Of a DNA stretch of 34,752 nt, positions 21,203-31,723 are shown one piece after another. A model generated the notes under the pieces. That model was not told the origin of the DNA. It saw only the letters and a list, made by a program, of their open reading frames with translations, and did not search any database. Position 1 is the stretch's first letter; the number at the start of each line of letters is the position of its first letter. Position numbers and translations under genes: made by a program. Origin of the DNA: Rhodothermales bacterium (lineage in GTDB: Bacteria > Bacteroidota > Rhodothermia > Rhodothermales > VXPQ01); assembly GCA_022825385.1 (NCBI GenBank), contig JAJDWX010000033.1, positions 64,680 to 99,431 of the forward strand, written 5' to 3'.

Positions 21203-21221
21203 AAAAAAGGCGTCGCGACGC
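21203..21221 (-). terminator. Weak candidate terminator after the S41 protease gene
   Basis: The palindrome GCGTCGCGACGC (21210-21221), overlapping the end of the stop codon, is followed on the minus strand by C then six T. The hairpin is only four to five base pairs, so efficiency is doubtful. Confidence 0.3.
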
Positions 21222-22936
21222 TATTTCAGGGGCGTTTTCGCACCCCGACCCCACAACGCCATGGCTTCGTGCAGCGCCGAATCGACCTCGCCGATCGTCC
21301 GGTACCACATGCTCCGGTCGTACGTCCGCTGCCCGATGCGCGCCTTCACGCGCGTCATCAGCAACGCCCGGTCGGCCTCGGCCTCCGAGCGGCTGAACCA
21401 CTGCCCCTCCCGGTCAGGTTCGTCCTCGCGGGCCAGTTCCGGGCTGTCGTCCGGGACCACATGGATGCCCTGCGGGCCAAGAAACGCCAGAAACGCCTCG
21501 AATTCGTCCGGGGCGAACGTAAATTCCCCGACGAACTCTTCGCGCCGCGCCAGCCATGCTTCCTGAAAAGCGGCCCCGCTCCGGTCGAGCCACGCCCGCG
21601 CGTAGGCGTTATCCTGCGACTGCCCGATAACCGTTCGGGCAAAAGACGACAGGGAATCCGGATAGACAATTACGTCCGGCAAGACGCCGCCGCCGCCGAA
21701 TACGGTGCGCCCCCCGGCGGTCGTATATTTCAGCGAGTCGGGCATTTCGTCCTGGATTTCCGATAAGGTCAAGGTCCTGTCGCGCCGATAGCGATCCAGT
21801 TTCGACGCATAGTAGTCGTCCAGTTCGCCCAGGGCGTACGGCGTCTGGATAAGGCGGCCCGACGGCGTGTAAAAACGCGAAATGGTAATGCGCAGCGCGC
21901 TTTCGTCCCGCAGGGGAAACTGCTTCTGAACCAGGCCCTTGCCAAACGTACGCCGCCCCACCACAAGCCCCCGGTCGTGATCCTGCACCGCGCCGGCCAC
22001 GATTTCGCTGGCCGAGGCGGAATTTTCGTTGACCAATACGATGAGCGGGCCCTCCTCGAAAAGACCTCCGTCGCGGGCGTAACTTTTGTGGCTGTGCTCG
22101 GCGTGGCGGCCCCGGGCCTCGACGATCATTTGCCCGCCCGCCAGAAATTCGTCGGCGATCTGCACCGCCATTTCCATGAAGCCGCCCGCGTTGTCGCGCA
22201 AATCAAGTATGAGGCGCTGCATCCCTTGCAGCTGCAAGGCGTCCACGCCTTCGGAAAATTCGTCCCAGGTCGTGCGCGCAAACCGATTCAGCCGAATATA
22301 CCCGGTCTCCTCGTCCAGCATGTACTGCGCGTCCAGGGTCCAGAAAGGAATCTTGTCGCGGGTAATCTGGAAATGGAGCGGCTCCGCGTATCCCGGACGC
22401 TGCACCGTTACCTTGACCCTGGTGCCCCGCGGCCCCTTCAGCGTGCGCCCGACGTCTTCCGCGGAAAAGCCAATGGCCGACGAATCGTCCACGGCCACGA
22501 TCCTGTCCCCGGAAAGCATGCCCGCGGCTTCGCTGGGCCCGCCCGGCAAGGGATTGAGCACAGCCACCGTGTCCCTGTCGTTCGGACCGGGAATGATCTC
22601 GAACGCAATCCCGATTCCGTCGAACGAGGCGTCGAAATCCTCCTGCACGCGCTTCATCGCCTCGGCGTCGATATACATCGAATGGGGGTCGAGCTCCTCC
22701 AGCATCCCGTGGATGGCGCGCTCGGTCAACCGCGGCGCGGAAACCTCCTCAACGTACCGCTCATTGATCATGAGATACGCATCTTCGAGTTTTCTGAGGG
22801 ACTCCGCCGTCGTAGTCCGAAAGACCACGGCGTTCAGCTCGAACCCGAGGACGATGCCCACAACCAGAACGACCGCGCCGAAAAGGTATAGCTTCCGATC
22901 CTGTTTCCTGCCCGATCCGGGCGTTCTTTCAGCCAT
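21221..22936 (-). CDS. S41 family C-terminal processing protease (CtpA-like)
   Basis: A 571-residue protease anchored by one transmembrane helix at about 16-37 with the rest in the periplasm. A PDZ domain spans about 105-190, with DGIGIAFEI and GGPSEAAGMLSGDRIVAVDD. The protease core has the catalytic Ser in NENSASASE (Ser in 306-310) and Lys333 in RRTFGKGLVQ. These enzymes trim or degrade periplasmic proteins from the C-terminus. The C-terminal 170 residues are a longer extension than in minimal CtpA but common in Bacteroidota members. The start MAERTPG was chosen since the helix follows closely; the open frame upstream is non-coding in character. Confidence 0.92.
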   Translation of the reverse strand: MAERTPGSGRKQDRKLYLFGAVVLVVGIVLGFELNAVVFRTTTAESLRKLEDAYLMINERYVEEVSAPRLTERAIHGMLEELDPHSMYIDAEAMKRVQEDFDASFDGIGIAFEIIPGPNDRDTVAVLNPLPGGPSEAAGMLSGDRIVAVDDSSAIGFSAEDVGRTLKGPRGTRVKVTVQRPGYAEPLHFQITRDKIPFWTLDAQYMLDEETGYIRLNRFARTTWDEFSEGVDALQLQGMQRLILDLRDNAGGFMEMAVQIADEFLAGGQMIVEARGRHAEHSHKSYARDGGLFEEGPLIVLVNENSASASEIVAGAVQDHDRGLVVGRRTFGKGLVQKQFPLRDESALRITISRFYTPSGRLIQTPYALGELDDYYASKLDRYRRDRTLTLSEIQDEMPDSLKYTTAGGRTVFGGGGVLPDVIVYPDSLSSFARTVIGQSQDNAYARAWLDRSGAAFQEAWLARREEFVGEFTFAPDEFEAFLAFLGPQGIHVVPDDSPELAREDEPDREGQWFSRSEAEADRALLMTRVKARIGQRTYDRSMWYRTIGEVDSALHEAMALWGRGAKTPLK

Positions 22937-22973
22937 GCTCGTAAAAATCCGTAAGATCGTTCCTGTATTTTCG

Positions 22974-23114: not shown

Positions 23115-24806
23115 ATGAACACCAATCAGGACATTGCGCGCCTGCTGAAGGAAACCGCCGCGCTCATCGAGATTACGGGCGGCAACGCATTCCGGGCCCG
23201 CGCTTTCGCCAAGGCCGGCCGCCTGATAGGCGGGCTGGAAGAAGAAGCGGCCGCGCTGGCCGAAACGAACTCCCTCGAAACGTTGCCCGGCGTCGGCGCA
23301 GGCCTTGCGGGGCAGATACGGGAGATTCTGGACCGGGGCTCCTTCGACCTGTACGAAACGTTGCGGGCCGACATTCCGCCCGGCCTGCCCGACCTCTTGC
23401 GCGTCAAGGGGCTGGGCGCCCGGAAAGCGCGGCGGCTGTGGAAGGAACTGAACGTCGTCTCCCTTGAGGAACTGGAGGAGGCGGCCCGGAGCGGACGGCT
23501 TGCCGACCTGAGCGGGTTCGGTCCCAACATGCAAGCGTCCATCCTCGAAAACATCGGCCTCCTGAAAGAATACGCCGGACGGCTTCGATACGACGAAGCC
23601 CTTGAAGAGTCCCTGCAGTGCATGGAGGCCATGCAATCGATACGCGAAGTACTCGAAGTGCGGCTGGCGGGCGCGCTTCGCCGAAATCTCGACACCGTGG
23701 ACTGCGTCGAACTGGCGGTTGCGGCGCATAACCCCGAAGCAGCGCGGCGGGCGCTGGCTGCGTGGCGCATGCGCGAGGAGCGACAGGCGGACGGAACGTA
23801 CGTCCTGCACGCTGCGCTGGAAGACGGATTCCCCCTGCGCATACATGTCGCGCCGCCGGAGCGATTCGGAACGACGCTATGGAAGGCCACCGGATCTGCG
23901 GCGCATGTCGCCGCAGTCGAGGCCCGCGGCCCGCTTCCGGGCGAAGCAGATTCCGAACAGGCCTTGTACGAGGCCGCAAACCTGCCGTTCGTGGACCCGG
24001 CCCTTCGGGAAAATACGGGCGAAATCGAGGCGGCGGCCCAAAACGAACTGCCTGACCTTATAGCTTACGAGGATATTCGGGGAACGTTGCACAACCATTC
24101 TACCTGGAGCGACGGAAAACATACGCTGCGCCAAATGACCGAGGCCGCGCTCGCCCGCGGCTACGCGTATTACGGCGTATGCGATCACAGCCAGTCTCTG
24201 GCTATCGCCAACGGACTCAGCATTGAGGAGGTATACGCGCAACAGGAGGAGATTCGCGCGCTGAACGAGGCGTACGGAGACCGTTTGCGGGTGTTCAGCG
24301 GCACGGAATGCGATATTCTTGCAGACGGATCGCTGGATTATCCGGACGACGTGCTGGCTACGTTCGATCTGGTCGTGGCGGCCATCCATACCCGGTTCGA
24401 AATGTCCGAAAAGGAAGCGACCGACCGCCTCGTACGGGCCATCGAGCACCCGCGCGCGACGATCCTGGCGCATCCGACCGGGCGCTTGCTGCTGAAACGG
24501 AAAGGCTATCCCGTCCGACACGAAAAAGTCATCGACGCCTGCGCGGCGAACGGCGTGGCCCTCGAACTGAACGCCAATCCCTACCGACTGGATATCGACT
24601 GGCGCTGGATACGGTACGCAACGGAGCGGGGCGTTCTGATCTCCATCAACCCCGACGCGCATGCGATCGGGCAACTGGACTACATGAAAATCGGCGTCCT
24701 CGCGGCCCGGAAAGGATGGCTTGCGCCCGAACAATGCCTGAACGCCCGAAGCCTGGAGGAATTTTCGTCCTGGCTCGACCAAAAAATATCCCGGCGCAGT
24801 CCATAG
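23115..24806 (+). CDS. polX: PolX-type protein with degenerate polymerase site and intact PHP exonuclease domain
   Basis: A 563-residue protein with the bacterial PolX layout: helix-hairpin-helix motifs (LPGVGAGLAGQI at 57-68, VKGLGARKARRLW at 97-109), a Pol-beta-like palm at about 180-300, and a C-terminal PHP domain at about 320-555. PHP metal ligands look complete: H326, H328, D333, H358, E398, H425, H453, D514, H516. In the palm the usual GSxRRGxETVGDxD reads GALRRNLDTVDCVE, so the two catalytic Asp become Cys197 and Glu199, and the third (VDLRVVPPE in relatives) becomes Arg242 in LRIHVAPPE. The polymerase is therefore probably dead while 3'-5' exonuclease/AP-type nuclease activity may remain. 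It leads a three-gene run, ending 13 bases before the acylase gene. Confidence 0.88.
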   Translation: MNTNQDIARLLKETAALIEITGGNAFRARAFAKAGRLIGGLEEEAAALAETNSLETLPGVGAGLAGQIREILDRGSFDLYETLRADIPPGLPDLLRVKGLGARKARRLWKELNVVSLEELEEAARSGRLADLSGFGPNMQASILENIGLLKEYAGRLRYDEALEESLQCMEAMQSIREVLEVRLAGALRRNLDTVDCVELAVAAHNPEAARRALAAWRMREERQADGTYVLHAALEDGFPLRIHVAPPERFGTTLWKATGSAAHVAAVEARGPLPGEADSEQALYEAANLPFVDPALRENTGEIEAAAQNELPDLIAYEDIRGTLHNHSTWSDGKHTLRQMTEAALARGYAYYGVCDHSQSLAIANGLSIEEVYAQQEEIRALNEAYGDRLRVFSGTECDILADGSLDYPDDVLATFDLVVAAIHTRFEMSEKEATDRLVRAIEHPRATILAHPTGRLLLKRKGYPVRHEKVIDACAANGVALELNANPYRLDIDWRWIRYATERGVLISINPDAHAIGQLDYMKIGVLAARKGWLAPEQCLNARSLEEFSSWLDQKISRRSP

Positions 24807-24819
24807 GGATACGCTGAAT

Positions 24820-26886
24820 ATGCGAAAACGGATCGTCCTCCCGGCGGTCGCGGCCTTGTGCCTCGTCGTCGCTTGCGGAACTGTCTTGTATTTGTCGTAC
24901 GGCCTGCCCGCCTCGCCGGGGCAAGCCGAAATACCCGGGCTGGGGGCGCCCGCCCGCCTCGTCGTGTACGAAAACGGCTCGGCGGCCATAGACGCCGCCT
25001 CCGCGCGCGACGCCTATGCGGGGCTCGGGTATCTGCATGCGCAGGAACACGCCTGGGCCATCGCCTTGCGGCAACGAACCGCCCGCGGCGTCCTGTCGCC
25101 GTGGCTTGGCCAGGAACTGCTGGCCATAGACCGGTTCGCCAAACGCCTCCGGCTCGCCTCCATGAGCCAGGCCGCCTACGCCGCCCTGTCGCCGGAGCAC
25201 CGGGACCTGCTACGCGCCTATGTGGACGGGGTGAACGCCGCGCTCGCCCGGCGCCAAACCGAACGATTGCCGGAATTCCTCCTGCTTGGCGTCGCGCCAC
25301 AGCCATGGGAACCCTGGTTTCCCCTGGCGATCGAGCGGTTGCTGGCGTGGCTTTCCGTTACGTTGCCGCCATCGGACACGGCGTCCGACGCAGCGCTACA
25401 CGCTTCGCCCGCCCTGAACGCGCTGCGGGAAGAGCATCGCCTGCTGCAAGAATGGCTGCACCTGCACGGATTCGACCACAGCATGGCCTGGGCCAGCGCG
25501 GACAGCGCCGGCGCGCGCCTCGCCCAGCGGCAGGTGTACGGCGCCTCGGCGTTGCCCCTGTTTCAGGAAGTAACCATGACCTGGCCCGGCGAAACGGCGA
25601 TGGGAGCGACCTGGATCGGCGTCCCGTTCATGCCTGCGGGCCGCACCACGGCCCGCGCCTGGTCGATCTTGCCTGCAAGCGCCGCCTCCGTGCGGGTTGC
25701 GGCGGACGATACGACGGCCTTTACGTTCGAATACGAAAAATGGACGGTGGCCGAGGGGCAGGAAACGATTGCGCGTTTCCGGCGAGATCCGGGCGCGCTG
25801 TTCCTTGGAACCGATTCCCTTTCGGCCAGCGAGGCGAGCCGGATGCCCCATGCGCCTCCGGATACGCTCGACGGGCAAGACGGCGTAGCGGTCAGCCTGT
25901 ATCTGACCTGGCCGGGATGGGAACCGGTCAGCGACGCGGCGGCCTGGTTCGGATTGCTGTCCGGCTCGGACGCGCCGTTCGCGCTGCAGGATGGAGACGG
26001 GCTAATAGCGCCCCGGCAGGCTGCTCCGTACGTAACCGGTACGCCCCTGTTCGCTGCCCGGTATCCCGGCGGCGTAGCCGTCGGCAACAATCCCTGGTCC
26101 GCGCTGGCGGCCGAACGCCTGGGCGCGCGCGCGGAAAGCGCATCGAACCGTTCGGACAACCCGGCGGATGCGGACGATTTGCGCAGCGCATGGGCCGCAA
26201 GCATAACGCCCCGGCTTATCGAAACCCTGTCGGCGCCCCCGGACGATGCCTCCCCTGCGCTTTTCGAGGACGCCCTGGCCTATCTGCGAAACTGGGACTA
26301 CGCCTTCGACGCAGCCAGCATTCCGGCCACGATCGCAGACACATGGGCCAGGTTGTATTTCGAGCGCCTGGGCGCATGGCCGGGGCTGCCGGCGGACAGC
26401 GCGGCGGCGGGCCTCGCCCGGCCGGAAACACGCGGCATCGAACGAGAAATCATGGAGCGAACCGTGAACGCGCTCGCCGAACGATTCGGAGCGAACCCGC
26501 AAGGGTGGCGCTGGGAAAACGCGCAGCCGCACGCCTATTATTTTCCCGTATGGTCCGCGGGCCATGCGTCCATCGGGAAAACGGGGGCGGCAGCCGGGCG
26601 CTACGCGCCGATACAACTCCCCGGAGCCGGGCATGTAACCACGTTGCAGTACGGCGTATCGCAGTCCGAAGGAGCATTGCCTGCGCCTGCCCGGTGGGAA
26701 GCCTGGATTTCCGCCTCCGCATGGGAGGTCCTGCGCTACCGCGCCCGGCGGTTCCCGGTTCATCGTCCCTTTGGAAGGTACCTGGTCCCCAAAAGCCTGC
26801 CCCCCTCCGCCGTTTTGCGCGCAGAAAAGCGCCGCGAAGAAGACGGGGAACCGATCCGATACGTAACCACGCTTCTGCCCGAGTAA
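24820..26886 (+). CDS. Penicillin acylase family (Ntn-hydrolase) protein, divergent active site
   Basis: A 688-residue exported protein with an N-terminal hydrophobic signal/anchor at about 5-27. GLGYLHAQEHAWAIALRQ (from about 68) and LSPWLGQELLAIDRFAKRL (about 92-110) match the A-chain of penicillin acylases, and FMPAGRTTARAWS and RYPGG-type segments match the B-chain. These enzymes are cut autocatalytically before a Ser, normally in GSNNW. Here the aligned motif is HSMAW with Ser221, and the following DPHL motif is not recognisable. The nucleophile may be kept, but self-processing and substrate are uncertain. It lies between polX and a BadF-type kinase. The family usually hydrolyses amides such as beta-lactams or acyl-homoserine lactones. 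Confidence 0.8.
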   Translation: MRKRIVLPAVAALCLVVACGTVLYLSYGLPASPGQAEIPGLGAPARLVVYENGSAAIDAASARDAYAGLGYLHAQEHAWAIALRQRTARGVLSPWLGQELLAIDRFAKRLRLASMSQAAYAALSPEHRDLLRAYVDGVNAALARRQTERLPEFLLLGVAPQPWEPWFPLAIERLLAWLSVTLPPSDTASDAALHASPALNALREEHRLLQEWLHLHGFDHSMAWASADSAGARLAQRQVYGASALPLFQEVTMTWPGETAMGATWIGVPFMPAGRTTARAWSILPASAASVRVAADDTTAFTFEYEKWTVAEGQETIARFRRDPGALFLGTDSLSASEASRMPHAPPDTLDGQDGVAVSLYLTWPGWEPVSDAAAWFGLLSGSDAPFALQDGDGLIAPRQAAPYVTGTPLFAARYPGGVAVGNNPWSALAAERLGARAESASNRSDNPADADDLRSAWAASITPRLIETLSAPPDDASPALFEDALAYLRNWDYAFDAASIPATIADTWARLYFERLGAWPGLPADSAAAGLARPETRGIEREIMERTVNALAERFGANPQGWRWENAQPHAYYFPVWSAGHASIGKTGAAAGRYAPIQLPGAGHVTTLQYGVSQSEGALPAPARWEAWISASAWEVLRYRARRFPVHRPFGRYLVPKSLPPSAVLRAEKRREEDGEPIRYVTTLLPE

Positions 26887-30859: not shown

Positions 30860-31723
30860 CTATACGTCGCAAAGCGCAACGGCTTCGCGCAAACTGACGA
30901 GCGGCGTCCGGGAGGGGATGAATTCCTGGCCGACATAGCCGTCGTATCCCGTCTCGCGAATCGCGCGCATAATGGCCGGATAGTTCAATTCCTGGGTTTC
31001 GTCGATCTCGTTTCGCCCGGGGTTACCTCCGGTATGGTAATGTCCGATGTATTCGTGGTGTTCGCGGATGGTGCGAATGACGTCCCCCTCCATGATCTGC
31101 ATGTGATAAATATCGTACAGCAGCTTGAAGCGTTCGGAGCCGACGCGCTTCGCCAGTTCGACGCCCCATTCCGTTCTGTCGCACATGTAATCCGGGTGGT
31201 CCACCTTGCTGTTGAGCAATTCCATGCAAATGGTGACGCCGTGTCGCTCCGCGTCTCCCACGATCTGGCGAATGCCCTGAACGCAATTTTCCAGCCCTGT
31301 TTCGTCGTCCATGCCCCGGCGATTCCCCGAAAAACAGATGATACCCGGAAAACCGGCGGCGGCCACCCGCGGAATCAGCTCCTTGAACCCGGATATGAAT
31401 TTTTCGTGAAATTCCGTACGGTTGAACCCGTCGGGAATTGAGGAGGGACCGAACGCCATCGCGCAGGTGAGTCCGTAGTCCTTGACGACGTCGAATTCCT
31501 CCGGGTTCAGCAATTCCACGGAGTGCATGCCGATGGCCCGGGCGCCTGCGCACAATTCCTCCAGCGTAAGGCCGGAATAGCACCATCGGCAAACCGAATG
31601 CTTGAGGCCCGCGCGGGGCGCGGCGGACGCAAGGCGGGGCGCGGCTTCGAGTGCGGCGGGCGCGCCCAGCGTAGCGCCTGCGGCGACCGCGGCGCTCTTT
31701 CCAAGAAATGTTCTTCGTTTCAT
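30860..31723 (-). CDS. Hydroxypyruvate isomerase-like TIM barrel with Tat signal
   Basis: A 287-residue protein with a twin-arginine signal (KRRTFLGK at 2-9, then Ala-rich). The mature domain resembles hydroxypyruvate isomerase: HSVCRWCYSGLTLEEL, then CMELLNSKVDHPDY, with a metal-ligand Glu, LLYDIYHMQIMEGD, HYHTGGNPGRNEIDETQELNY, and YVGQEFIPSR with the final Glu. Hydroxypyruvate isomerase interconverts hydroxypyruvate and tartronate semialdehyde. Export by Tat would place it outside the cytoplasm, unlike Hyi of enteric bacteria. It starts 11 bases after acs and is followed by the second isomerase-like gene after 28 bases. Confidence 0.85.
   Translation of the reverse strand: MKRRTFLGKSAAVAAGATLGAPAALEAAPRLASAAPRAGLKHSVCRWCYSGLTLEELCAGARAIGMHSVELLNPEEFDVVKDYGLTCAMAFGPSSIPDGFNRTEFHEKFISGFKELIPRVAAAGFPGIICFSGNRRGMDDETGLENCVQGIRQIVGDAERHGVTICMELLNSKVDHPDYMCDRTEWGVELAKRVGSERFKLLYDIYHMQIMEGDVIRTIREHHEYIGHYHTGGNPGRNEIDETQELNYPAIMRAIRETGYDGYVGQEFIPSRTPLVSLREAVALCDV

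Follow-up and report, generated by a model that had tools for sequence, protein, structure and literature searches.

A probable polymerase-dead PolX with a complete PHP nuclease site, and the alternation of PolX with exonuclease III in Rhodothermales

The PolX gene and its neighbours

The window analysed here is a 34,752-nucleotide stretch of contig JAJDWX010000033.1 from a Rhodothermales bacterium. Its PolX reading frame is complete, starts with ATG and encodes 563 aa which align end to end, over residues 4–555, with the PolX of Thermus thermophilus (3B0X/3AU2; phmmer, E ~1e-96); the Deinococcus radiodurans enzyme (2W9M) likewise aligns end to end. The protein scores above the cut-off of the NCBIfam PolX model PRK08609, and the layout of bacterial PolX (PolX1) is complete in one chain, with an 8-kDa helix-hairpin-helix (HHH) domain, thumb, palm, fingers and a C-terminal PHP domain. 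An AlphaFold2 model (pLDDT 93, pTM 0.86) finds its best structural match in T. thermophilus (Tth) PolX 3AU6 (Z 45.6, rmsd 3.4, 539 residues). The alignment to the Thermus enzyme confirmed the triad substitutions described below.

PolX is flanked by a divergent S41 (CtpA-like) peptidase gene and, 13 bp downstream, by a gene of the penicillin-amidase family (Table 1). These two genes adjoin most PolX genes across Rhodothermales, which argues that PolX has been vertically inherited in the order. Read by eye, the amidase has SMAW where SNNW is usual, and its active site may be altered.

Table 1. Features of the PolX locus, in window coordinates
Feature	Position	Strand	Basis
Divergent S41 (CtpA-like) peptidase gene; start codon placed by eye	21221..22939	-	Pfam PF03572; synteny
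Noncanonical PolX gene (probable), 563 aa	23115..24806	+	Alignment with Thermus and Deinococcus PolX over the full length; NCBIfam PRK08609; AlphaFold2 model
8-kDa helix-hairpin-helix domain (HHH_8), residues 2-76	23118..23342	+	Pfam PF14716, 59 bits
Second helix-hairpin-helix (HHH_5), residues 93-137	23391..23525	+	Pfam PF14520
Degenerate palm domain, residues 178-249	23646..23861	+	AlphaFold2 strands, homologue identity, dN/dS
Cys197 replacing Tth Asp198	23703..23705	+	Alignment
Glu199 replacing Tth Asp200	23709..23711	+	Alignment
Arg242 replacing Tth Asp240	23838..23840	+	Alignment
Shortened fingers region	23862..23981	+	Alignment
PHP nuclease domain; 9/9 metal ligands present, together with F428, R457, R462, N486, R491, K533	24072..24794	+	Alignment; residue roles from PMC6616362
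Penicillin-amidase-family gene, 13 bp downstream of PolX	24820..26886	+	Pfam PF01804; synteny

The polymerase and nuclease sites

The palm motifs align to those of Tth PolX without gaps, DTVGDLD corresponding to DTVDCVE in the window and VDLRVVPPE to LRIHVAPPE, and the letters given for them in the initial annotation were read correctly. The catalytic triad D198/D200/D240 is replaced by Cys197/Glu199/Arg242 (CER). The accompanying claim that three polymerase aspartates had been lost holds for the aspartates themselves, but Glu199 is still acidic, so that two of the three carboxylates are gone and two of the three positions are non-acidic; the 2022 classification of noncanonical PolX counts either Asp or Glu as an acceptable triad residue (PMC9226535). 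The neighbouring Asp196 stands where canonical PolX has Gly and where the whole genus has Asp or Glu. With both Glu199 and Asp196 acidic, a complete loss of metal binding is only putative.

Could the polymerase still work, its metals held by these two acids or by others in a shifted register? Besides the acids themselves, this reading has on its side an earlier report of some activity in the D. radiodurans enzyme (AEE), but neither the AEE nor the ARE enzyme had polymerase activity when re-tested in 2022 (PMC9226535). The third triad position is Arg, the dNTP pocket is gone along with some 15 residues of the fingers, and congeners with RVR, SVH or DVR keep no in-register acid triad. A register shift that would rescue the triad is ruled out by the ungapped flanks and by the lack of such a triad in same-genus orthologues, and we regard a working polymerase as very improbable. 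The substitutions are neither chance nor a sequencing slip: CER recurs in a 95%-identical congener, four further congeners are altered, and the motifs on either side are conserved. Triads within the genus, whose named members are Rhodothermales MAGs, read CER, CER, RVR, RVR, SVH and DVR; the triad drifts within the genus.

The dNTP motif YLTGSKAHS of Tth has become KATGSAAHV and GSARR has become GALRR, and the steric-gate Tyr, the Lys and the Asn/Ser of the pocket are gone. Between the dNTP motif and the linker lie 33 residues, compared with 48 in Tth and 48–57 in canonical homologues, a shortening of the fingers by about 15 residues; the palm is not reduced in length, and its strands (181–185, 198–203 and 240–246) are retained in the AlphaFold2 model despite the lost site. 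Mean pairwise identity in the palm is 25% among altered PolX and 47% among canonical rows, with a dN/dS of ~0.27–0.36 between the window species and 73%-identical congeners. The palm is under relaxed yet still purifying selection, and so appears to be retained for some purpose, plausibly DNA binding.

A complete PHP nuclease site, as initially annotated, is present, with 9/9 metal ligands (H326, H328, H358, E398, H425, H453, E484, D514 and H516) and six residues of the DNA path. In Bacillus subtilis PolX, mutagenesis identified F440, R469, R474, N498, R503 and K545 as needed for AP-endonuclease and exonuclease activity, and mutating such residues lowers AP-endonuclease efficiency 257- to 1674-fold (PMC6616362). 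With identical spacing, all six correspond to F428, R457, R462, N486, R491 and K533 of the window. Among the 76 altered proteins of our alignment (below), the PHP consensus HHHEHHEDH is invariant, as are R457, R462, N486 and R491, and K533 is found in 74. Mean pairwise identity in the PHP domain is 59% among altered and 49% among canonical rows. Decay towards a pseudogene, with no function under selection, would fit the drift of the palm and the different triad letters among species, but this reading is barely credible given the invariant PHP ligands, a frame that is open in every same-genus genome, the conserved gene order across Rhodothermales, and dN/dS values (again with 73%-identical species) of ~0.10 in PHP and 0.14–0.2 in HHH.

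Compared with the canonical enzymes of T. thermophilus (3AU2/3AU6/3AUO) and B. subtilis, the window PolX shares fold, domain order, PHP site and DNA-path residues, whereas their triad and dNTP motif are intact and their fingers longer.

Relatives and the noncanonical PolX class

Our alignment holds 94 sequences, including Tth and D. radiodurans PolX, drawn from order, class and phylum searches and from 40 further stretches; 76 are altered and 18 canonical. The window PolX groups with the 54 Rhodothermales orthologues of the alignment in a single clade of 55 rows, all of them altered. On the tree, a single change divides altered from canonical PolX (SH-aLRT 100). When palm and fingers columns are left out, two label changes are needed, and well-supported branches force just one of them.

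Two Rhodothermales genomes (G024 and G107) carry a canonical DDD PolX (L066, L067) besides the altered copy, and these canonical copies group with Thermus PolX, apart from the altered Rhodothermales copies. Relatives of other families have a separate ORF (L086, L087, L088, L089 and L090; roughly 180–350 aa) that resembles the N-terminal half of PolX, with HHH_8 and HHH_5. No palm or PHP match was found in these ORFs, and a full PolX is present besides.

Noncanonical PolX was defined and assayed by Prostova et al. in 2022. It makes up 27.5% of prokaryotic PolX, comes mostly from Bacteroidetes and Deinococcus, with Rhodothermaeota also named, and is recognized by non-acidic triad substitutions, a degraded dNTP motif and a retained PHP HHHEHHEDH; deletions in palm and/or fingers are common, not universal (PMC9226535). 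A 2026 survey reports the same bias toward PHP conservation (PMC12926913). The window PolX has the altered triad, the degraded dNTP motif, a fingers deletion and 9/9 PHP ligands, and falls in the main altered clade; it is a further member of this published class. Taken as a whole, the evidence is best explained, with high probability, by a gene for a noncanonical, polymerase-dead bacterial PolX that keeps its PHP nuclease.

The assayed members closest in kind are the PolX proteins of D. radiodurans (AEE) and D. gobiensis (ARE), which are inactive as polymerases and have a strong Mn-dependent 3′-5′ exonuclease (PMC9226535). Like the window protein, they have five domains and an altered triad, their dNTP pocket is degraded and their PHP site complete, and they lie on the same side of the tree (D. 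radiodurans structure, 2W9M). The window protein differs in having CER, a palm of 71 residues compared with 63 in D. radiodurans, and its deletion in the fingers. By analogy with these relatives, we infer that it lacks polymerase activity and is active as a 3′-5′ exonuclease. The PolX-like PHP proteins of Actinobacteria (for example M. tuberculosis Rv3856c; PMC12926913) have also kept the PHP nuclease and lost polymerase function; there the polymerase region is deleted, whereas in the window PolX it is present and folded.

The initial annotation had predicted a nuclease that binds DNA through HHH, possibly an AP endonuclease or repair exonuclease that fills no gaps. This prediction agrees with the sequence, with the model and with the biochemistry published for relatives. 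On such a scheme, HHH and the degenerate palm and fingers would bind DNA that is gapped or abasic. The PHP domain at the C-terminus, through its Mn-dependent multi-metal site, would trim 3′ ends and probably nick abasic sites, and another polymerase would fill the remaining gap.

PolX, exonuclease III and Ku in Rhodothermales genomes

HMM searches found neither exonuclease III nor endonuclease IV in the window's own genome, a further difference from the Deinococcus case. Two EEP proteins of this genome (L106 and L107) were rejected as exonuclease III, scoring 24 and 19 bits where the cut-off is 99. A window gene at 30860–31723 (- strand) with the Pfam AP_endonuc_2 TIM barrel was rejected as endonuclease IV; its best NCBIfam matches are sugar isomerases/epimerases, with nfo unlisted among them.

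We surveyed 60 Rhodothermales genomes (G000–G059), 44 with PolX and 16 without, counting exonuclease III where TIGR00633 scored above its cut-off and endonuclease IV by TIGR00587. Endonuclease IV was found in 0/60, and the control was found in 10/14 genomes. Exonuclease III is present in 15/16 genomes without PolX and in 8/44 with it (Fisher test, 1.2e-7; 2e-4 at genus level; 0.027 in a one-sided test stratified within families; 0.035 for families uniform in PolX). All but one of the 60 (G030) hold exonuclease III and/or PolX, and the catalytic residues NNEYDNDDH are kept in each of the 22 exonuclease III genes read. Exonuclease III (Xth) has an EEP-family fold unrelated to PolX, and the two share no homology. 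Their complementarity is a comparative result and partly phylogenetic: PolX varies internally in two families only, and kinship is controlled for only in part. The eight PolX-bearing genomes that retain exonuclease III indicate that any replacement is non-obligatory. We found no mention of Xth/exonuclease III in Prostova et al. (PMC9226535), and our literature searches returned no report of the complementarity. In D. radiodurans, a polX xth double mutant is H2O2-sensitive and the polX single mutant is not (PMC7548837).

The published guess for the role of noncanonical PolX in vivo is end joining. Genome-wide, altered PolX is associated with NHEJ genes (46.5% compared with 24.9%) and co-occurs with Ku/LigD, and the phenotype of the D. 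radiodurans polX mutant lies in radiation recovery (PMC9226535). The window PolX might accordingly serve as a nuclease that processes ends in end joining or in the repair of double-strand breaks. In the window's own genome (97% complete), however, Ku and the LigD polymerase domain were not found; Ku is absent from all genus members searched, and in the survey it occurs in 1/44 genomes with PolX and 7/16 without, the opposite of the proposed link. Break repair by a Ku-independent route may still be compatible with the window PolX, but on balance we hold an end-joining or break-repair role to be unlikely. Ku-bearing genomes lack PolX in seven of eight cases and belong mostly to one family (f2); extending the Ku search to the class contributed little.

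The alternation of PolX with exonuclease III, together with the lack of endonuclease IV in all 60 genomes and the near-absence of Ku where PolX is present, suggests a stand-in for exonuclease III over end joining. We infer, with less assurance than for the protein itself and at a little under an even chance, that the main job of PolX in Rhodothermales is base-excision repair, as an AP endonuclease and 3′-end cleaner in place of exonuclease III; the complementarity lends indirect support to the AP-endonuclease part of the original reading. A broader and somewhat more tentative proposal is that polymerase-dead PolX took the place of exonuclease III across the order, becoming its principal AP endonuclease and 3′-end cleaner, with most lineages keeping one of the two. 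If true, a former polymerase would have been repurposed as the core nuclease of base-excision repair, and the Rhodothermales pattern points to that pathway where the published guess was end joining. The pattern of exonuclease III and PolX in Rhodothermales is a new hint at function; the PolX protein is ordinary for its class.

Three other PHP matches in the window's own genome were looked at by eye as candidates for endonuclease Q: L001 has a PHP match of DnaE strength, L003 is a secreted protein, and L004 (G000:C2, ORF from base 1306), whose PHP domain is followed by a long C-terminal region, resembles a PHP-ATPase.
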